Assembly: GCA_903904545.1 (NCBI GenBank)
Contig: CAIVDB010000042.1
Coordinates: 1 to 9,828 of the forward strand
Length of the DNA stretch: 9,828 nucleotides
Direction: 5' to 3'
Origin: an uncultured bacterium
Lineage (GTDB): Bacteria > Patescibacteria > JAEDAM01 > Absconditabacterales > Absconditicoccaceae
Shown: piece by piece, positions 681 to 9,324 of the stretch
How positions within the stretch are numbered: position 1 is the stretch's first letter
Layout of the letters: the number at the start of each line of letters is the position of its first letter
The notes under the pieces: model-generated
What the model saw: the letters and a program-made list of their open reading frames with translations, nothing else
Databases searched by the model: none
Told to the model about the DNA's origin: nothing
Position numbers and translations under genes: made by a program

Positions 681-1676
681 ATGTTAGATATACAAAAACT
701 AATCTGATCACCTAAAATTATTGTATCTACTATCGATGAGAGCACAACAAAATTTGAAGTAAAGTATCTCCCTAGAGGATTTGGACACACACTATGAAAC
801 GCTTTGAGAAGAATTGTTTTGTGATATAGTGTAGGTGGTGCAATTACTGGACTCAAAATCAAAGGTGTTCCTCATGAGTATTATGTTATTGATGGAGTGA
901 AGGAGAATGTCATCGACATCATGTTAAATTTTAAGACACTTCGCTTTGATGTAGATGAAAGATCTGAAAATATTCAACGAGTTTCTCAGAGATTTAAAGG
1001 AGTATGAACATATACATCAAGTAATATAAAATTGCCTGGTGGTATAGAACTTTTGAATGAGGATGTTTATCTCTTTGAGATCACCGATCCTTCTGTAGAA
1101 CTCAATATCGATATTAGAATAGAAAAGGGATATGGGTATTATAGTATAGATTATCTAAGAAATCGTGATAGAAAAGATGAAGATAATGAGGTAAATATGT
1201 TACTTATGGATAATGAGTTTAAATTGGTTGAATATATCAAGTACGATGTGGAAGAAGTAATTGAGGATTTCACAGGTGCTACCAAAGATCATCTTATCTT
1301 AGAAATCAAATCAGGATTTAATAAAGTATCTCCAAAAGAGATTGTTATGTTTGCTGGCGAAGTGCTTGCTTCTTATGCAAAATTATTCATTTTTGATGAT
1401 GTCTATATAGATAAATCATTCTTGGTTGATATGGAAGAACTAGAAAAAGTTCAAGAAAAATTCCATGAAGAATCTAATGTCAAAACTATGCCTATTGATG
1501 CACTTCCTTTGAGTGAAAGAACGAGAAATGCATTGATCAAAAATAACATCTTGTATGTAGAAGACCTTGAAAAGAAAAAGAAAGGTGAACTCCTCTTGAT
1601 GAAGGGTGTAGGAAGGAAAGCTATTGATGAAATCAACAGTGCATTGGCAAATATTGATAAGGCATTGATAGGATAA
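681..1676 (+). CDS. rpoA: DNA-directed RNA polymerase subunit alpha
   Basis: Alpha dimerises to start RNA polymerase assembly; its C-terminal domain contacts UP elements and activators. With TGA read as Gly the product is 331 residues, the usual size (E. coli 329). The N-terminal domain has the hallmark [20 protein letters not shown] at about residues 31-50, in which two glycines are TGA, and then [16 protein letters not shown]. Four TGA codons occur in all, the last in GVGTYT. The C-terminal domain starts near residue 260 with [16 protein letters not shown] and contains the helix-hairpin-helix [12 protein letters not shown]. The ATG at 681 is chosen because the frame is continuous from there and the conserved domain begins soon after. 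No Shine-Dalgarno is visible. One CGA at about residue 98 may be Trp rather than Arg. The standard code would give only a C-terminal fragment from about 1032. Confidence 0.97.
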
Positions 1677-2127: not shown

Positions 2128-2604
2128 ATGGAATTTACTAAAACCGACCTTAACAAAACTCTCCGAGTGAAACCAACCGAGATGGACAAGCAAAGAAAAC
2201 GATATAAAGTTGATGCAACAGGAATGACACTTGGAAGACTCTGTTCAGATATTGCTAAGAAACTTCTTGGTAAGGACAAAGCTTACTACTGTGATTTCCG
2301 AGATTGTGGGGATTTTGTAGTTGTAGAACATGCTGAAAAAATCAAGGTAACAGGTAAAAAACTTGATGAAAAGATCTATTATTCTTATAGTGGATGGAAG
2401 GGAAATTTGAAGCAGATTACTTTGAGAGAACTTCTCAAGAAAAATCCTTCAAGAGCTATCTTCTTCGCTGTCAGAGGAATGCTTACTAAGAACAAATTGA
2501 GAGACAGAAGAATGAAGAGATTGAAAATCGTTGCAGGACCATCTGTTGCTTATGATCATTTCAAGACGGTAAACCTTACTACTCCAGCAGCAAAGACTAA
2601 ATAA
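2128..2604 (+). CDS. rplM: 50S ribosomal protein L13
   Basis: L13 is an early-assembling 50S protein. The product is 158 residues, slightly longer than typical (about 142-150), with extensions at both ends. The core is clear: YKVDATGMTLGRLCSDIAKK at about 26-45, then DCGDFVVVEHAEKIKVTGKK, and FAVRGMLTKNKLRDRRMKRL toward the C terminus. It contains no in-frame TGA. It has three CGA codons, at residues 13, 25 and 58. The one at residue 25 lies in the motif that is R-x-W-Y-x-V-D-A in most L13 proteins (E. coli RDWYVVDA), exactly on the tryptophan, so CGA probably means Trp here. The rplM-rpsI pair is a conserved unit; here it follows rplQ by 39 bp. No Shine-Dalgarno precedes the ATG. The tail after AGPSVAYDH is not conserved. 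Confidence 0.96.
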   Translation: MEFTKTDLNKTLRVKPTEMDKQRKRYKVDATGMTLGRLCSDIAKKLLGKDKAYYCDFRDCGDFVVVEHAEKIKVTGKKLDEKIYYSYSGWKGNLKQITLRELLKKNPSRAIFFAVRGMLTKNKLRDRRMKRLKIVAGPSVAYDHFKTVNLTTPAAKTK

Positions 2605-2658
2605 TACCTACTACCTCTATTACTATCAATATTTTTATTGTGTTTAGGTCTATAAATA

Positions 2659-3081
2659 ATGGCAAACAAAGAATACTACTATGCGATAGGAAGAAGAAAA
2701 GAAACTACTGCTATCGTAAAACTCTTCTCTAAGGGAGCAGGAAACTTTTCCGTAAAATCCCCTAATGGACAGACCAGAACTCTCAAGGAGTATTTTGGAG
2801 GAAATCTTTATCTTTTTGATAATGCATTAGCTCCTTTATCTCTTCTTGGTATGGAAAACATTAGTCGTTTCGATGCTGAGATTACCATCAGTGGTGGAGG
2901 AATTGCTGGACAATCTGATGCAATCAGACTTGGATTTGCGAGAGCACTTACCTTGCATGATGCAGACTTTAGACTTACCTTGAAGCCTTATGGATTACTC
3001 AAAAGAGATCCTAGAGTGAAGGAAAGAAAGAAGCCAGGTTTGAAGAAAGCGAGAAAGGCTCCTACATGGTCAAAGAGATAA
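2659..3081 (+). CDS. rpsI: 30S ribosomal protein S9
   Basis: S9 sits in the head of the 30S subunit, and its C-terminal tail reaches the P-site tRNA. The 140-residue product has the family start YYYAIGRRKETTAIVKL, the central SGGGIAGQSDAIRLGFARAL, and the basic tail that begins RDPRVKERKKPG and ends KKARKAPTWSKR. The final Ser-Lys-Arg is the conserved tRNA-contacting end. No in-frame TGA occurs despite about 17 glycines, in contrast to rlmD and murB downstream. It is the last gene of the ribosomal operon: the stop is followed after about 50 bp by an intrinsic terminator. The ATG follows a TATAAATA stretch with no Shine-Dalgarno. Confidence 0.97.
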   Translation: MANKEYYYAIGRRKETTAIVKLFSKGAGNFSVKSPNGQTRTLKEYFGGNLYLFDNALAPLSLLGMENISRFDAEITISGGGIAGQSDAIRLGFARALTLHDADFRLTLKPYGLLKRDPRVKERKKPGLKKARKAPTWSKR

Positions 3082-3132
3082 TCGTGGGGTTTGCCTACTT
3101 ACAGAGAACTTATTCATCTTATTATACAAAGG

Positions 3133-3155
3133 GCCCTTATGAGAAGGGCTTTTTT
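3133..3155 (+). terminator. Intrinsic terminator of the rpsD-rpsI operon
   Basis: GCCCTT (3133-3138) pairs with AAGGGC (3144-3149) across the loop ATGAG. Six T residues follow at once. It is a textbook rho-independent terminator 51 bp after the rpsI stop. Confidence 0.9.
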
Positions 3156-3195
3156 GATTGGTGGAAAGCGTATGTATGATCTGTAACAGAAACCG

Positions 3196-3226
3196 TTGAA
3201 AACAAAGAGAACTTTGTTAGTATTTA
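3196..3226 (+). promoter_or_regulatory. Possible adk promoter with internal hairpin
   Basis: Between the operon terminator and adk there is a TTGAAA (3196-3201) and a TATTTA (3221-3226) separated by 19 bp, a loose sigma-70-like pair. The spacer contains a perfect 7-bp inverted repeat, AACAAAG (3201-3207) and CTTTGTT (3212-3218), with a 4-base loop. A new promoter is expected here because transcription from upstream should end at 3155. The exact elements are uncertain. Confidence 0.25.
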
Positions 3227-3273
3227 TACCATGAAGAAATTCGGTTTTTATTTTATTGTTCTCTACGGAAAAG

Positions 3274-3846
3274 ATGATGAAAGATTTGGTGTTTCTTGGT
3301 ATCCAATGATGTGGAAAATGAACTCAAGCAAAACTATTCTTGGAAAAACTCCCTGAGTACTGGTACTTCGAGATGGGACAAACACTTAGATCGTTGATGT
3401 CCAACGACAATCTCATTGGAAAATATATCAAAGATGTTGTAAACCATGGGAGAATGATTGATAATTTCATCACCCATGATTTGATCGATACGAGCTTACA
3501 AATAGCACAAAATAATAATAAATATATTATTATCGATGGATTCCCTAGAGTTCAGGAACAGGCAGAATTTTTTAGCCAGAAGATGCAACAAATGGGGAGG
3601 GATTTTATGGTGATCCATCTAGAACTTCCCAAAGAGATAGCACTCGAAAGGATGATGAAAAGAGCTACATTAGAATGACGTGGAGACGATACTCCAGAGG
3701 TTATGCAACAAAGAATAGCTATCTTTACTCACGAAACGCTAAATGTTATCAAGCATTTTGAAGAGTTAGGCAAGGTAATTACCATCAATGCAAATGATTC
3801 TATCGAACATATTCAAGCAGCATTACATAGTAAATTAGGACTTTAG
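3274..3846 (+). CDS. adk: Adenylate kinase, short-lid form
   Basis: Adenylate kinase interconverts ATP + AMP and 2 ADP in the cytoplasm. The 190-residue frame has the P-loop GIQGCGKGTQ at residues 9-18; the Gly codons at residues 12 and 16 are TGA, so standard-code reading destroys the nucleotide site. The AMP-binding segment FEMGQTLRSL and the IDGFPR motif (Asp88) follow. Near residue 125 come RMMKRATLE, a TGA-encoded Gly at 135, then RGDDTPEVMQQRI, the usual LID exit (R-x-DD). There is no room for the 27-residue zinc-type lid, so this is the short form. The start is ATG 3274; the next codon is also ATG, so 3277 is equally possible. A standard-code caller would wrongly begin at about 3340. 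It ends in TAG 15 bp before the methyltransferase gene and is probably cotranscribed with it. Confidence 0.95.
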
Positions 3847-3861
3847 TTTTTGTTCCACTCC

Positions 3862-5499
3862 ATGAAACTCCTCAAGGGAATTAAGATAGAAAAAATATGA
3901 TATGGTTGAATAGGACTCGCAAGGATGTCTGATGGGAAAAGGATATTGATCAAATGAGGTGCTTTGCCTGGGAGTGTAGTCGATCTTAGAATCGTAAAAC
4001 AGAAAAAAGATTTCATAGAAGCACATATTTTTCATATTCATAAACATGATCCCAAATTGGTGGATGGAAAAGTTTTTTGTCCGCATTTTTTCCGAATGGA
4101 AGAAGAGGAAGAGTCAAAAATTGTACAAGATGGGACAAAATCGAACAAAGTTGAGGAAAATGAAGGAAGAAGTGAGGAATGAAATGATAATTCTAAATTT
4201 TGAATTCTGAATTCTAAATCCCCACGAAAAGTGGGCTGTGGGGGATGTAAATGGCAAATGTTGAGTTATCCTACTCAGCTCAAACTCAAACAAGACATTG
4301 TATTGGATTCATTCAAAAAATTATCAGCATATCCTATAGAAATACGTTCTATCATCGGTTCTCCTCTGGAGAAATGATATAGGAATAAAATCGAATTTAG
4401 TTTTGGAAAATATATCACCAACAGTAGCGAATGATGAGTGACAAGTGAAGGGAAGAAAAATATAGATATATTGTCGGATCGAAGTATTGGATTTCATAGG
4501 CAATGAGAGTTTAGTAAAATCGTAGATATTGATAGCTGTGGATTGATCTCAGACAAGGCAAATGAAATTTTCGCGTATATCAAATGACTGTGTTTCGCTT
4601 CAGGATTACCGGTGTATGACCAGAAGACCCATCAAGGATTCTTTAGACATTTGGTCATCAGACAAGGATTTCATACCAATCAATTTCTGGTAAATCTTTC
4701 GGTGTCAGGAGACAATCTCCAGGACTCCACTACCCAACTCCGAGAAAAACTCCTCACCCAACTCAAATCAGACTCCTTTCTTCAGGAGCAGATTACCACT
4801 TTTGTCATCACACACAATGATGGACTCGCAGATATCATCAAATCCCCACTCTCAGAAACTAAAATTTTACGATGAGAGGGCTATATGTATGAACAACTTC
4901 TTTTCGATACCAAAGAAGGAAAAGATGAAAAGGCTGCAGTTTCCTTCAGGATATCTCCCTTCTCGTTTTTCCAAACGAATACTGTCGGAGCACAACAACT
5001 CTTTGCTTTGGCAATGCAGATGGCAGGAAAGGTAGAAGGAACCATCTTAGATCTGTATTGTGGTACTTGAAGTATCGGACTGAGCTTTCTCAAGGCAGGA
5101 ATGGGCGATTTCGTCATAGGGATAGAGATCGTAGAAGAAGCAATTACTGATGCTCGACATAATGCAAAAATCAATGGACTAGAAAACCAGGTTCTCTTCA
5201 TAGCAAATCCTGCAGAGAAAGAACTTACCACCCATGATGTACTCAAGGACAAGATAGAAACTCTTTGACTTGTGATTGTCGATCCGCCTAGAGATGGACT
5301 TCATAAAAATGTCATTTCTTTCCTTGGTAAAATAAAAAAAGAAAGAGACTTTAAACTTGTCTATATTTCTTGTAATCCTGTCACCATGGTGAGAGATCTT
5401 GAACTGTTTCATCAAGAAGGTTTTACGACCAAAACGATCCAGCCTGTAGATATGTTCCCTCAGACGCATCATATCGAGGTCATTGGGATCTTGGAATAG
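3862..5499 (+). CDS. rlmD: TRAM-domain 4Fe-4S 23S rRNA (uracil-5-)-methyltransferase
   Basis: This enzyme family (RumA/RlmD/RlmCD/TrmA) adds a SAM-derived methyl group to C5 of a uridine. The 545-residue product begins with a TRAM RNA-binding domain (IGYGGIGLAR near 12-21, GALPG at 33-37). Iron-sulfur cysteines are C73, C126, C129 (CGGC) and probably C226. The catalytic half has ISPFSFFQTN, SAM motif I LDLYCGTGSIGL (396-407, Gly403 is TGA), DPPRDG from Asp474, nucleophile Cys504 in ISCNP, and a general-base Glu539 in HHIEVIGIL. Thirteen TGA codons encode Gly. The first two cluster cysteines are normally about five residues apart; here 52 residues intervene, an acidic low-complexity insert that includes a 21-bp DNA repeat. 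Six CGA codons occur; the one at residue 337 precedes GEGY, where relatives have an aromatic residue. The family is certain; the target uridine is not, so the symbol is provisional. Confidence 0.92.
4189..4235 (+). repeat. 21-bp direct repeat and hairpin inside rlmD
   Basis: The 10-mer AATTCTAAAT occurs at 4189-4198 and again at 4210-4219, 21 bp apart, with a further AATTCTG between (4203-4209). It translates in frame as NSKFGIL followed by NSKS. Immediately downstream CCCAC (4221-4225) pairs with GTGGG (4231-4235) around GAAAA. The block lies in the extra loop between Fe-S cysteines C73 and C126. Confidence 0.75.
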
Positions 5500-5523
5500 T
5501 GTTTATTTCTTTTGTTTGTGCAG

Positions 5524-6126
5524 ATGCGTAGCCGTAAAATTCATGAAGTAACATCTCCATCCACAGAAAGCGAAGACGGTATCAAATGGAAACAGCAAGC
5601 AAAAACCATTATTTTCGATTTAAAAAAAGAATTATCTCATCCTTCTCAACGCACACTAGACGATGTAGATGCGATGTGGAGATATCAAGCACTTCTAGAA
5701 GATATGCTTATCCATGCTGTATATATTACCAATCAAAAATATGCCTACTTTGAACAAAAAAAATATGATATGAGGAATGTCGAATTGGAGTACCAGAACG
5801 TTTCACTAAAAAATAAAGATGATGATTCTCTCAAAACATTTAGAAGAGAGATCTCTTCTACCATCAGGAAATATACGTGATATATTGCTGAAATAGATAT
5901 TTTCTCCAAAGAGTTTATCCAATCACTCTCCCAACTCTGTGAGAAATGATCTCAACTCTCCTATATAGATATCCCAAAAGCTAAGATTACAAAAGGAAAG
6001 GATTCCTTCGGAAATATCAAAAGACAAATGGGATATATTATAGAAGATACCCTTCTCCCTCTTCATAAAGAGGCTTTCAAACTATTAAAGTCGCACAGTA
6101 CTGCATCAAAAAGTATTTGAAAATAA
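5524..6126 (+). CDS. Hypothetical helical protein between rlmD and murB
   Basis: I do not recognise this 200-residue protein. It is rich in charged residues (Lys, Glu, Asp, Gln) and looks almost wholly alpha-helical, with no membrane segment or signal peptide. The N-terminal 20 residues and the last 15 look disordered (SPSTESEDG; KSHSTASKSIGK). The middle has aromatic-rich helices (WRYQALLEDMLIHAVYI, then YAYFEQKKYDMRNVELEY) that could pack as a helical bundle or coiled coil. Three TGA codons encode Gly, so reading with the standard code stops at 5880. Start ATG 5524 lies 24 bp after the rlmD TAG. There is no Shine-Dalgarno and no visible promoter between them, so it is probably cotranscribed with rlmD. 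The absence of conserved catalytic motifs suggests a structural or binding role, but that is a guess. Confidence 0.8.
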
Positions 6127-6128
6127 TA

Positions 6129-6134
6129 TATAAT
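6129..6134 (+). promoter_or_regulatory. Possible -10 element of a murB promoter
   Basis: A perfect TATAAT lies just after the stop of the hypothetical gene and 39 bp before the murB ATG, which would give a leader of about 30 nt. No good -35 is present at normal spacing. The region is very AT-rich, so chance is possible. Confidence 0.3.
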
Positions 6135-6173
6135 ATGATACTTTGTTTGTATTCTTACTTCTTAATTATTTGT

Positions 6174-7238
6174 ATGGATATCCAATCAAACATTTCTCTC
6201 AAACCCTATACTACCTTCCAAGTGGATGCGAAGGCAAAATTTTTCTGTGAAGTGAAAAACGAAGAAGAAATACAAAGTCTGATTACCAACGAGATATGGA
6301 CTCAGTATCCTCATCTGATCTTAGGTGGCGGTGCGAATATCCTCTTCACGAAAGATTATGAGGGGCTTGTTGTAAAGACTTCTCTCTTGGGCAAAGAAAT
6401 ACTCGAAGAAAAAGATGGCTTCGTATATATCAAAGTATGATCAGGCGAAGACTGGCACGAAACGATGATGCAAATGCTCGAGCAGGGATTTGTTGGCTGA
6501 GAAAATTTGGTGTATATCCCTGGACAAGTAGGATCTGCTCCTGTAGGAAATATTTGAGCCTATGGCAAAGAGGCGAAAGATATTATTTTTGCAGTGGAAT
6601 GAATCGACCTTATTACTTGAGAAAAAACAATTCTATCAAATACGGACTGTCATTTTGCTTATCGTGACAGTATCTTTAAGCGCGAACTCAAAGACAGATT
6701 TTTGATTACGTCAGTAATTTTTCAGCTCCAAAGAAACTCAGAAACGTATATTCCCGATACCCAATACAAAGATATCCAGCAAGCAATAGCAAGTAAATGA
6801 TTGGAGCACATCTCCGGTCTGGAATTAGCTCATATAATCATTGAGATTAGAAAAAACAAATTACCAGACCGGCATCTCGTCTGAACGGCATGAAGTTTTT
6901 TCAAAAATCCTGTCATCGATAAAGCACAGTATGATACATTACTCCAAAAATATCCCAATCTCATCTGACGAGAAGTTCAAGACCAAAAACTCCTTCACTC
7001 AACATTAAACATTACGCATTCAACATTAATCAAGTTATCTGCCTGACAATTGATCGAATTGGCCTGATTGAAATGATATAGAGCATGAGATGCAGGCGTT
7101 TCTCCTCAGCACGCTCTCGTCCTGCTCAACTATGGCAATGCCTCTGGAGAAGATATTGTCCATCTCGCTGAGTATATCCAAAAAAAAGTGGAGGAGCTTT
7201 TCGCTCTCCACCTTGAACCTGAAGTAATCTATGTGTAA
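6174..7238 (+). CDS. murB: UDP-N-acetylenolpyruvoylglucosamine reductase, type I
   Basis: MurB is the FAD enzyme that reduces UDP-GlcNAc-enolpyruvate with NADPH to UDP-MurNAc, the second committed step of peptidoglycan synthesis. The 354-residue product (E. coli 342) has the FAD-binding LGGGANILF near 49-57 and PGQVGSAPVGNIGAYG in the middle. AYRDSIFK contains the type I active-site Tyr (163). GSFFKNP contains the proton-donor Ser241, and Glu350 is in the C-terminal LEPEVIYV. Thirteen of 30 glycines are TGA, including Gly240 in the catalytic motif; under the standard code the gene falls apart after 6440. A 7-residue repeat (HSTLNIT-HSTLI) sits in a loop before IKLSAGQLIELAG that is shorter in relatives. 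CGG at residue 233 follows KLPD and may be Trp. ATG 6174 is chosen because the conserved domain starts at once (SLKPYTTFQV). The gene ends 3 bp from the convergent pilin gene. Confidence 0.95.
6999..7029 (+). repeat. 21-bp direct repeat inside murB
   Basis: TCAACATTAA occurs at 6999-7008 and at 7020-7029, exactly 21 bp apart. This gives two in-frame copies of a 7-residue block beginning HSTL. It lies between the conserved GSFFKNP and LSAGQLIE segments, where E. coli MurB is roughly a dozen residues shorter. Confidence 0.7.
7180..7211 (-). terminator. Intrinsic terminator for the first pilin gene, embedded in murB
   Basis: Read on the - strand, GTGGAGAGC (7211-7203) pairs with GCTCCTCCAC (7197-7188) around a 5-base loop: nine pairs with one bulged base. 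Eight T residues (7187-7180) follow directly. The hairpin begins 30 nt after the pilin stop, a typical terminator position. The whole structure lies within murB codons for KKVEELFALH. On the + strand no T-run follows the hairpin, so it should end only - strand transcripts. Confidence 0.75.
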
Positions 7239-7241
7239 GAA

Positions 7242-7880
7242 TTAGGGAGAAATGAGTACATATTGAAGTTCTTCTGGCAAGACATAGGTACAATATCCTG
7301 TTCATCCATTATATCTCTGAGTGGATTTCACCATCTTTGTACATAAACGAGGAGAGAGTAACTCTACAGAATTATATGTTGAGGGATCTTCCATATCATA
7401 ATTATATAATCATACCCCGTTTGGATCCGCTCCACCATCTTCTAAATTAATGACTCGATTTGCCAGTGCCTCTGTCTCTGCATTTGCAATCAAGGCATAT
7501 CATTTGTAATTTATTCCTCACTTAAAAAGATGAACATATCCGTATCCTCCTGGAGTTGTTGGTCATCCATATGTTGTAACACTACTATTTTTCGGATCTC
7601 TTGGCATTGTTGGAATATATTTTTGCAGTAAAGTTTTATTTGCAGTGGAATTAGTGTCCCAAGCAATAGCATTCCCATCTGGATAATTACCTTTATCCAT
7701 CTGATACATGGTCAATGCTGTTGCAATCTGTCTGAGGTCAGCTTTTCTTGCAGTATCATTTGCTCTCGCTCTTGCACTGGTCAATCTTGGAATAAGTGCT
7801 CTCGACAAGAGGCCTATGATGACGATTACGATAAGCATCTCTACTAAAGTAAAGGCCTTGAACATCTTTTTTGTATTCAT
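7242..7880 (-). CDS. Type IV pilin / PulG-like pseudopilin 1
   Basis: Pilin subunits insert by an N-terminal helix, are cleaved by a prepilin peptidase and polymerise into a surface fibre. The 212-residue product has a short positive leader (MNTKKMFKA) and then FTLVEMLIVIVIIG: class III signal, mature Phe1, Glu5, hydrophobic helix. The -1 residue is Ala, not the usual Gly. A helix with ARKADLRQIATALTMYQMDK and then GNYPD follows, a GspG/PulG-type pattern, with a MPRDPKN loop later. Five TGA codons (first at 7563-7565) encode Gly; reading them gives a C-terminal half with YALIANAETEALAN and two cysteines 16 residues apart near the end (LC...YC). It is the most divergent of three copies; its helix has LLSRALIPRL rather than ILAAALIPRL. 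It is convergent with murB. The machinery (PilB, PilC, PilD) is not in the window. Confidence 0.9.
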
Positions 7881-7945
7881 ATCTTTTTGTATGAATTAAA
7901 TTTATATCTTTATAGATAATCTATCGATAATTTCCAGTGTATTTA

Positions 7946-7973
7946 CAAAAAGATTTGCCACGATGGCAAATCT
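7946..7973 (-). terminator. Intrinsic terminator after pilin 2
   Basis: AGATTTGCCA (7951-7960) and TGGCAAATCT (7964-7973) form a perfect 10-bp stem with a 3-base loop, 25 nt beyond the pilin 2 stop. On the - strand a T-rich tract (TTTTTG) follows. It separates pilin 2 from pilin 1, so pilin 1 probably has its own promoter in the 7881-7945 stretch, where I see only an ATAGAT-A-ATCTAT inverted repeat (7912-7924). Confidence 0.8.
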
Positions 7974-7997
7974 TTCTCTTTGAAAGTTATATTTCTC

Positions 7998-8573
7998 TTA
8001 GTAAACGACGATATATCTCAATTGCGCCACATTGTTGTACTGACATGTTCCATTGTTATTGATTACTGGAGCTCCATTAGAAAACGACGAGCAAGGAACG
8101 ATAGATTCTACTGTTGTTCCTCATGTTATATTCCCTACTGTTGTACCGGATACTACTCGGTTTGATCCTCCTTCTGTTTCTGCTCTTGCCATCAAAGCAT
8201 ACCCTCCACTTGTTATCCCTCATTTGGTTATAGGCGTATAAGAATACTGTCCTGTTACTGCACCAGCAATTCCATTGTTTGCAATACTCGTGACGGGATC
8301 CTTTGGTACTGCATTGATTCCGGCTCCTGTCAATGCTGCAGACATTCCTGTCAACGCTCCAACGTTTGTAGGATAATACCCTTTGTCTATCTGATATGCA
8401 TTGATTACTGTAGATACCTGTCTCAAGTCAGCTTTTCTTGCTGTGTCATTTGCTCTACCTCTCGCATTAGAAAGTCTTGGAATAAGTGCTGCGGCCAAGA
8501 TACCGATGATAACAATCACAATAAGCATTTCTATAAGTGTGAATGCTCTTTTTTTTTGTTTCATACTTTTCAT
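7998..8573 (-). CDS. Type IV pilin / PulG-like pseudopilin 2
   Basis: This 191-residue prepilin has leader MKSMKQKKRA and mature start FTLIEMLIVIVIIGILAAAL, with Glu5 and Ala at -1. The signature RANDTARKADLRQVSTVINA follows, then YQIDKGYYP and VPKDPVT as in GspG-type pseudopilins. TGA at 8220-8222 and 8121-8123 encode Gly. Beyond them the protein has GGYALMARAETEGGSN, a T/G-rich beta region, and a C-terminal loop bounded by two cysteines with 15 residues between (PC...TC), then QYNNVAQLRYIVVY. This resembles the disulfide-closed D-region of type IV pilins. Its 5' 120 bp are almost identical to pilin 3. ATG 8573 is used; ATG 8564 is an equally plausible start. CGA at 8157-8159 (after SN) is shared by all three pilins and may be Trp. 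It has its own terminator downstream. Confidence 0.9.
8430..8550 (-). repeat. Near-identical repeat shared by pilin 2 and pilin 3 (copy 1)
   Basis: This 121-bp segment matches 9151-9271 with about three mismatches. It encodes the signal sequence, the N-terminal helix and the ARKADL segment. Divergence rises sharply after it. Confidence 0.9.
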
Positions 8574-8653
8574 AGGGATATAAGTAGAAAATAAATTATT
8601 CTCAGTTTATTCTTTTTATACTTCAATACAAGTATTTTTTTTAATTTTCCGTT

Positions 8654-8690
8654 TAAAAAAGAAGTGCTACTTACAATAGCACCCCTTCTC
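8654..8690 (-). terminator. Bidirectional-type intrinsic terminator after pilin 3
   Basis: GTGCTA (8664-8669) pairs with TAGCAC (8677-8682) around a 7-base loop. The A-rich left flank and T-rich right flank (AAAAAAGAA and TTCTCTTTTTT) give a T-run on either strand. It lies 36 nt beyond the pilin 3 stop and separates pilin 3 from pilin 2. Confidence 0.8.
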
Positions 8691-8718
8691 TTTTTTAAAA
8701 TTAGTATATATTTAAGGA

Positions 8719-9288
8719 TTAGTATACAATAATATATCTTAGTTGATTAATATTAGAGTATGTACATACTCCATTACTATTAGCTGGTACCGCCCCTGCA
8801 GTAAATGAAATACATGGAGTAATAGCTTCTATTGTTGTTCCTCATGTTATATTTCCTAATAGTGTACCTGATACTATTCGGTTTGCTCCTCATTCGGTCT
8901 CTGATCTTGCCATCAAAGCAAAACCACCACTTGTTACACCTCCCTTAGTTATAGGCGTATAAGAATACTGTCCAGGTACTGATCATGGGATTCCATCATT
9001 TACGATAGAAGTAACAGGGTCTTTTGGTACTGAATTCATCCCTGCTCCTGTCAACTCTCCTGCAAGTCCTGTTAATGTACCTTGTTTGCTTGGCACAGAT
9101 CCCTTATCAATAACATAAGCGCTAATAACGGTTGCTAATTGTTGAAGATCAGCTTTTCTTGCTGTGTCATTTGCTCTACCTCTTGCATTAGAAAGTCTTG
9201 GAATAAGTGCTGCGGCCAAGATACCGATGATAACGATCACAATAAGCATTTCTATAAGTGTAAATGCTCTTTTTTTGTTTGTAAACAT
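8719..9288 (-). CDS. Type IV pilin / PulG-like pseudopilin 3
   Basis: The 189-residue prepilin starts MFTNKKRA and then mature FTLIEMLIVIVIIGILAAAL, again with Glu5 and Ala at -1. I chose ATG 9288 over the upstream TTG at 9300 because it gives a leader of normal length. RANDTARKADLQQLATVISA, then YVIDKGSVP and VPKDPVT follow the GspG pattern. TGA at 8983, 8890 and 8842 encode Gly; beyond them come GGFALMARSETEGGAN, a Thr/Gly-rich stretch, two cysteines with 15 residues between (PC...VC), and TYSNINQLRYIIVY. The C-terminal 70 residues are similar to pilin 2 but clearly diverged, and the region after the helix differs most. It is the first pilin gene in the direction of transcription and ends in its own terminator. 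Whether it is a major or minor pilin cannot be told. Confidence 0.9.
9151..9271 (-). repeat. Near-identical repeat shared by pilin 2 and pilin 3 (copy 2)
   Basis: Partner of 8430-8550, with an offset of 721 bp and the same orientation. It covers the 5' coding part of pilin 3. Confidence 0.9.
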
Positions 9289-9324
9289 ACGTGTATACAA
9301 TAAAAGATAAAAAGAATTAGCGTA

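Follow-up and report, generated by a model that had tools for sequence, protein, structure and literature searches.

Very probable decoding of CGA and CGG as tryptophan, beside UGA as glycine, in an Absconditabacteria genome fragment

In most organisms, CGA and CGG are arginine (Arg) codons, and reassignments of sense codons are rare in bacteria. For Absconditabacteria, a code in which CGA and CGG are tryptophan (Trp) beside UGA as glycine (Gly) has been predicted, with supporting transfer RNAs (tRNAs) (Shulgina and Eddy 2021, eLife 10:e71402, PMC8629427). According to the passages of that paper available to us, CGA stays below 37 per 10,000 in the Pfam domains of all its species, and the frequency of the reassigned CGA/CGG codons has not yet rebounded, one Absconditabacteria assembly being further along. 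The same passages take G73 and the lack of A20 as the identity rules for a Trp-type tRNA, give a GC content of 0.26-0.38 for the reassigned clades, and state that Trp insertion can be established by experiment only. They also describe a change of CGG to Trp in Anaerococcus and in uncultured RFN20 Bacilli, and of CGG to glutamine in Peptacetobacter. In the part of PMC13092985 consulted, CGA/CGG as Trp is repeated for Absconditabacterales. Among the sources searched, mostly titles and abstracts with few subscription papers or preprints, no report of this reassignment in Absconditabacteria was found beyond these two. The passages of PMC10746230 and PMC13059738 at hand do not mention the reassignment, and those of PMC13059738 mention neither CGA nor tryptophan. 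Here we analyze a DNA stretch of 9,828 nucleotides (contig CAIVDB010000042.1; hereafter, the window), in which 15 CGA/CGG codons occur. The initial annotation of the window had proposed that these codons may be read as Trp and had named NCBI table 37, which we take to be the code in question. Our comparisons with related genomes indicate that, in the genome of the window, CGA and CGG almost certainly encode Trp, beside UGA for Gly.

A search of genome contigs with RpoA gave 32 loci. The top locus is in JAPLUV01 (candidate division SR1; hereafter, genome G001; 89% identity), the second is in CAIXFE01 (genome G002; 86% identity), and the titles among the remaining loci include SR1, Absconditabacteria, Gracilibacteria and Peribacteria. 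Judged from RpoA sequence identity, the window is from Absconditabacteria (SR1). When UGA is taken as Gly, the window holds 12 frames: rpsD, rpoA, rplQ, rplM, rpsI, an adk-like gene, rlmD, one frame without an assigned name, murB and three pilin-like genes. L13, RlmD, MurB and the N-terminal motif of the pilins were checked against family libraries; the frames named rpsD, rpoA, rplQ, rpsI and adk are presumably these genes. Unless TGA is a sense codon, the reading frames are interrupted (rlmD and murB contain 13 TGA each). The 12 frames contain 14 CGA, 1 CGG, 10 TGG, 13 CGT/CGC and 106 AGA/AGG codons, and AGA accounts for 96 of the 119 AGA/AGG/CGT/CGC codons. The GC content, in steps of 1000 bases, is 0.327-0.370.

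The proteins of relatives were aligned to those of the window with CGA/CGG masked as X. Of the 188 codons that relatives have at the 15 window sites, 106 are TGG and 59 CGA/CGG; one is an Arg codon, and the remaining 22 comprise 5 tyrosine, 5 serine, 5 asparagine and 2 phenylalanine codons and five singletons. At least one relative has TGG at 14 of the 15 sites, and an Arg codon occurs at one. When the CGA sites of the window are considered alone, TGG is found in some relative at 13 of 14. As a control, the 67 sites at which these seven genes of the window have AGA/AGG/CGT/CGC were compared with 933 codons of relatives, of which 676 were Arg and 123 lysine; neither TGG nor CGA/CGG was detected. 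The five TGG sites of the window in these genes correspond in relatives to 10 TGG, 5 CGA/CGG, 27 tyrosine, 5 phenylalanine and 5 glycine codons. The pooled counts are not independent, because the relatives share common descent and because the six relatives aligned to the pilins each contributed one gene, which was used for all three sites. When that gene is counted once, 102 TGG, 53 CGA/CGG and 1 Arg codon remain among 176. The enrichment of TGG at the 15 window sites is above chance.

The analysis was extended to orthologue columns across the clade. From 33 sources, 78 groups of reciprocal best orthologues were prepared; 51 of them overlapped other groups as probable wrong frames and were dropped, and 27 were kept. 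The consensus of a column was set at 70% among the other genomes, with CGA/CGG left out. In the kept groups, 90 of the 106 CGA codons lay in Trp columns, 12 in leucine columns and one each in alanine, glycine, serine and asparagine columns; of the 18 CGG codons, 10 lay in Trp, 3 in threonine, 2 in glycine, 2 in leucine and 1 in glutamine columns. Thus, 100 of the 124 CGA/CGG codons fall in Trp-consensus columns, and none falls in an Arg-consensus column. As controls, the other four Arg codons lie in Arg columns in 2712 of 2979 cases and never in Trp columns, and TGG lies in Trp columns in 275 of 298 cases and never in Arg columns. A count over all 78 groups gives 11 CGA/CGG codons in Arg columns and many in glutamine, leucine and glycine columns. 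These 11, one of them from the window, are all in dropped groups, and every one of their frames overlaps a kept gene (six on the opposite strand, five in another frame). The initial annotation had regarded CGA/CGG mainly in Arg columns as speaking against its proposal; in the relatives, Trp columns were found instead.

The tRNA genes of the two closest relatives were surveyed (G001, 41 Rfam matches and 43 distinct ARAGORN calls, some of them duplicates; G002, 39 and 38). Both genomes have tRNA-Arg with GCG, UCU and CCU anticodons, tRNA-Trp(CCA) and a tRNA with the UCG anticodon; an ACG tRNA is absent from both surveys. A CCG tRNA and a UCA tRNA with Gly-type ends (G1:C72, C2:G71, G3:C70, U73) are present in the G001 survey and not in that of G002, whose assembly looks incomplete, Gly(UCC) being missing too. 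ARAGORN labels the UCG and CCG tRNAs as 'Arg', a label that comes from the anticodon alone. In a pattern search of 32 genomes, a UCG tRNA was matched in 29, a CCG tRNA in 26 and a CCA tRNA in 28, and ARAGORN read 28 UCG, 26 CCG and 27 usual CCA tRNAs from the fetched loci. In all 28 UCG and all 26 CCG tRNAs, G73 is present and G18G19 is followed by T or C (no A20), as in tRNA-Trp. In contrast, the six tRNA-Arg (GCG, UCU and CCU) of G001 and G002 all carry A73 and A20. The first pair is A1:U72 in 26 of 26 CCG tRNAs, as in tRNA-Trp; in the UCG tRNAs it is G:U in 19, G:C in 6 and A:U in 3. An intact tRNA-Arg for CGA/CGG, the other finding that the initial annotation had counted against its proposal, was not seen in these relatives, where the tRNAs for the two codons are of the Trp type. 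The proposal of Trp is therefore supported by both the alignment columns and the tRNA identity in relatives.

The origin of the UCG/CCG tRNAs was approached by a comparison of nearest bodies and by a tRNA tree over 73 columns, in which 55 of the 119 inner branches are open. A second tRNA with a CCA anticodon in G016 (C55:79461), which was set aside from the counts above, has a body that scores nearest to some CCG/UCG tRNAs and not to tRNA-Trp(CCA). On contig C8 of G002, the anticodon and T-arm pattern of tRNA(UCG) occurs twice, 288 bases apart. Phage-borne UCG tRNAs were considered as well. A pattern scan gave 12 viral contigs, in 8 of which ARAGORN called a UCG tRNA. Read by eye, A follows G18G19 in 8 of 8 and position 73 is A in 7 of 8 (G73 in one, L316). 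Because of these bases, the viral tRNAs resemble ordinary tRNA-Arg; a link to the clade was not found. A tryptophanyl-tRNA synthetase (TrpRS) above the family cut-off was detected in all 14 genomes searched, as one copy in 13 and two in one. The two copies of the latter genome (G010) are 53% identical to each other, and one of them might be specialized for a CGA/CGG tRNA.

To compare codons over larger gene sets, five genomes were sampled: G001 (420 kb), G002 (387 kb), G008 (RAAC1_SR1_1; 400 kb), G014 (533 kb) and G013 (292 kb). Genes were called as simple longest frames under code 25, and unique sites in reciprocal best hits were counted. At sites where at least one reference has TGG, CGA, CGG and TGG were found 129, 12 and 118 times among 416 sites in G001, 85, 34 and 123 times among 378 in G002, 46, 4 and 128 times among 299 in G008, 114, 7 and 114 times among 412 in G014, and 36, 5 and 77 times among 227 in G013. 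Arg codons occupy 4 of the 416 sites in G001. The interchange of CGA and TGG is alike in G013, the most distant of the five samples (RpoA 60%).

The decoding could then operate as follows. UCG and CCG tRNAs with Trp-type identity bases, such as those of the relatives, would be charged in the cell of the window by one TrpRS, which would also charge tRNA-Trp(CCA). CGU and CGC would be left to a separate tRNA-Arg(GCG), and AGA and AGG to tRNA-Arg(UCU) and tRNA-Arg(CCU), as in the two surveyed genomes. CGA and CGG would deliver Trp alongside UGG, and CGA and TGG would drift into one another as synonyms, in agreement with the alignments.

Several points weigh against this reading. In the kept groups, 24 of the 124 CGA/CGG codons lie in columns other than Trp, 14 of them in leucine columns. 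The leucine cases are mostly two columns in which the codon is common to several genomes (rplM group, 5 CGA and 1 CGG; adk group, 4 CGA), and six of the CGG misses come from one short, doubtful group (group 31). In the window, rlmD codon 82 is the sole site of the 15 without Trp support, and a relative (L015) has CGT at rlmD codon 436. The tRNA evidence comes from the genomes of relatives, and the window's own tRNAs are deduced from them. In G007, which has CGA/CGG at Trp columns, the strict pattern matched neither a UCG nor a CCG tRNA; assembly gaps or a divergent tRNA could account for this. The family profiles, scored with Trp or Arg at CGA/CGG, covered three window proteins (L13, RlmD and MurB) and few sites. 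Trp lowers the scores, relative to Arg, for the RlmD model (228.0 vs 228.7 bits), the RlmC model (145.1 vs 150.7), the methyltransferase domain (32.6 vs 37.0) and MurB_C (92.3 vs 93.3). With L13, Trp gave 145.3 bits vs 138.1 for Arg with the NCBIfam model and 129.8 vs 126.1 with the Pfam model, and with murB 360.0 vs 357.2 in one model and 226.5 vs 226.6 in another. The result is mixed, and the profiles by themselves do not decide between Trp and Arg, in line with the initial annotation, which had called the evidence from the window mixed. Finally, the Trp reading rests on sequence data, which leave room for ambiguous decoding.

Such ambiguous decoding would insert mostly Trp and some Arg, for example through wobble of tRNA-Arg(GCG) or residual charging by arginyl-tRNA synthetase. 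The CGT of L015 would fit it, as would the few CGA codons at sites where a reference has Arg: 8 in G001, 5 in G002, 0 in G008, 4 in G014 and 5 in G013, with a single CGG, in G008, and 0 in the other four. However, TGG is present at the reference-Arg sites about equally often (4, 5, 1, 3 and 7 in the same order), beside 1055, 1054, 720, 1051 and 561 Arg codons. Thus, the CGA codons there represent a background of substitution and alignment. Since the identity of the UCG/CCG tRNAs is also clean, we consider ambiguous decoding very improbable. An equally small probability attaches to the possibility that CGA alone is Trp and that the single CGG of the window means something else. This would be compatible with the one CGG available and with the G002 survey, which lacks a CCG tRNA, though other expected tRNAs are missing there too. 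On the other hand, the six relatives have CGG, CGA, TGG, TGG, CGA and CCA at that site (murB codon 252), and G002 itself uses CGG at 34 unique reference-TGG sites and at no reference-Arg site. In addition, CGG can be read by tRNA(UCG) through wobble. Least probable of all is that CGA/CGG keep the standard Arg meaning as rare codons and that the sites resemble Trp sites by coincidence, which the RlmD/RlmC, methyltransferase and MurB_C profiles and the CGT of L015 would favor, but which is opposed by the absence of CGA/CGG from Arg-consensus columns, by the 106 TGG codons vs one Arg codon at the window sites, and by the lack of Arg identity bases in 54 of the 54 UCG/CCG tRNAs read.

The individual sites are listed below; codon numbers follow the frames used here.

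Table. CGA and CGG codons of the window and the codons of relatives at the same alignment positions.
Site	Position	Strand	Relatives
rpoA codon 100, CGA	978..980	+	TGG 26/32, CGA/CGG 6, Arg 0
rplM codon 13, CGA	2164..2166	+	TGG 15/28, CGA/CGG 10, phenylalanine, tyrosine and glycine 1 each
rplM codon 25, CGA, in K-R-K-x-Y-K-V-D-A	2200..2202	+	TGG 17/27, CGA/CGG 10
rplM codon 58, CGA	2299..2301	+	TGG 26/28, CGA/CGG 2
rlmD codon 82, CGA	4093..4095	+	of 7: serine 5, lysine 1, phenylalanine 1; variable column beside gaps
rlmD codon 126, CGA	4225..4227	+	TGG 2/7, CGA/CGG 2, tyrosine, histidine and threonine 1 each
rlmD codon 211, CGA, before SIGFH	4480..4482	+	TGG 3/7, CGA/CGG 4
rlmD codon 298, CGA	4741..4743	+	TGG 4/7, CGA/CGG 3
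rlmD codon 341, CGA, before GEGY	4870..4872	+	TGG 3/7, CGA/CGG 4
rlmD codon 436, CGA, DA-CGA-HNA	5155..5157	+	of 8: TGG 1 (L007), CGA/CGG 6, CGT 1 (L015)
murB codon 252, CGG, after KLPD	6870..6872	+	TGG 2/6, CGA/CGG 3, proline 1
murB codon 285, CGA	6969..6971	+	TGG 1/6 (closest, in G001), asparagine 5
pilin-like gene 1 codon 142, CGA	7455..7457	-	TGG 2/6, CGA 3, tyrosine 1
pilin-like gene 2 codon 139, CGA	8157..8159	-	TGG 2/6, CGA 3, tyrosine 1
pilin-like gene 3 codon 141, CGA	8878..8880	-	TGG 2/6, CGA 3, tyrosine 1

The count of fifteen codons and their distribution among the genes had been given exactly by the initial annotation (rplM 3 CGA, rlmD 6 CGA, murB 1 CGA and 1 CGG, rpoA and each pilin 1 CGA); the range 2164..8880 assigned to them leaves the rpoA site outside. 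Its residue numbers agree with ours if our codon 5 is taken as the start of rlmD and our codon 20 as that of murB. As it had noted, the conserved arginines use AGA (DPPR, MVRD, IRKN and DGFPR) or CGT (YRDS). Its choice of L13 residue 25 as a Trp site holds, since each of the five L13 alignments shown from the PDB also has Trp there (e.g., RDWYVVDA). The same applies to the two rlmD sites for which it had expected an aromatic residue (codon 341, its 337) and a hydrophobic one (codon 211, its 207): in the RlmD-like structure 5xj1 and its variants, these face tyrosine and phenylalanine, respectively, and codon 436 faces a non-aromatic residue. At murB codon 252, its residue 233, two of six relatives have TGG; in the four PDB MurB alignments shown, this codon faces proline and codon 285 tyrosine. 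The site in DA-CGA-HNA, described as more Arg-like, is CGA in six relatives, TGG in L007 and CGT in L015; it is a weaker site and not a contrary one.

The three pilin-like genes are consecutive on the minus strand (7242-9300), and each has an N-terminal methylation motif. They share an N-x-V/I motif, in which x is CGA in the window and CGA, TGG or tyrosine in relatives. The frame without an assigned name (5512-6126, 204 residues) gave 0 Pfam matches and has one weak relative (31%, in G001).

Codon usage was compared as CGA vs TGG per 10,000 orthologue-aligned codons: 59 vs 51 in G001, 50 vs 45 in G014, 44 vs 46 in G002, 38 vs 68 in G008 and 55 vs 76 in G013. CGA thus looks about as common as TGG for Trp in the lineage of the window. 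Unlike the usage described in the passages of PMC8629427, CGA in G001 and G014 exceeds TGG, and these values suggest a CGA usage above the limit given there, although the measures differ (orthologue-aligned codons here, Pfam domains there). One could suppose that the lineage has passed a cross-over, with CGA as the commonest Trp codon, and that the driver was UGA as Gly: U34 of tRNA-Gly(UCA) would misread UGG, and Trp would shift to a codon box without this conflict. As a whole, this idea is unlikely. Its cross-over portion is backed by the counts in G001, the closest relative, and G014. The driver has no support so far, since it predicts more CGA at conserved sites, and the CGA/CGG share of Trp codons in G001 is about equal at reference-conserved Trp sites (258/460) and elsewhere (102/183).

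That CGA/CGG are Trp in Absconditabacteria is already known; the addition here is the quantitative CGA usage. The assignment is now supported in further genomes and by a method other than that of the original screen, and the lineage of the window is well suited to studies of how a codon, once reassigned, rises to be a main one. NCBI table 25 (SR1 and Gracilibacteria) has UGA as Gly, as in the window; unlike the window, it keeps CGA/CGG as Arg, and therefore very probably mistranslates the window's 15 codons. Translation with this table, as in the available part of PMC13059738, writes Arg where Trp is very probable, which concerns roughly 0.5% of codons.

As far as the passages of PMC8629427 go, the window resembles the Absconditabacteria code described there in taxon, in UGA as Gly and CGA/CGG as Trp, in low GC content and in Arg encoded mostly by AGA, and its relatives share the tRNA(UCG) and tRNA(CCG) with Trp-like identity. 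Anaerococcus, RFN20 and Peptacetobacter, described in the same passages, are likewise low-GC bacteria with a reassigned Arg codon of the CGN box, to Trp in two of the three. In these three, CGG alone moves, CGA being presumably kept for tRNA-Arg(ICG), whereas both codons appear to have moved in the lineage of the window, where the two surveyed relatives gave no ACG tRNA.

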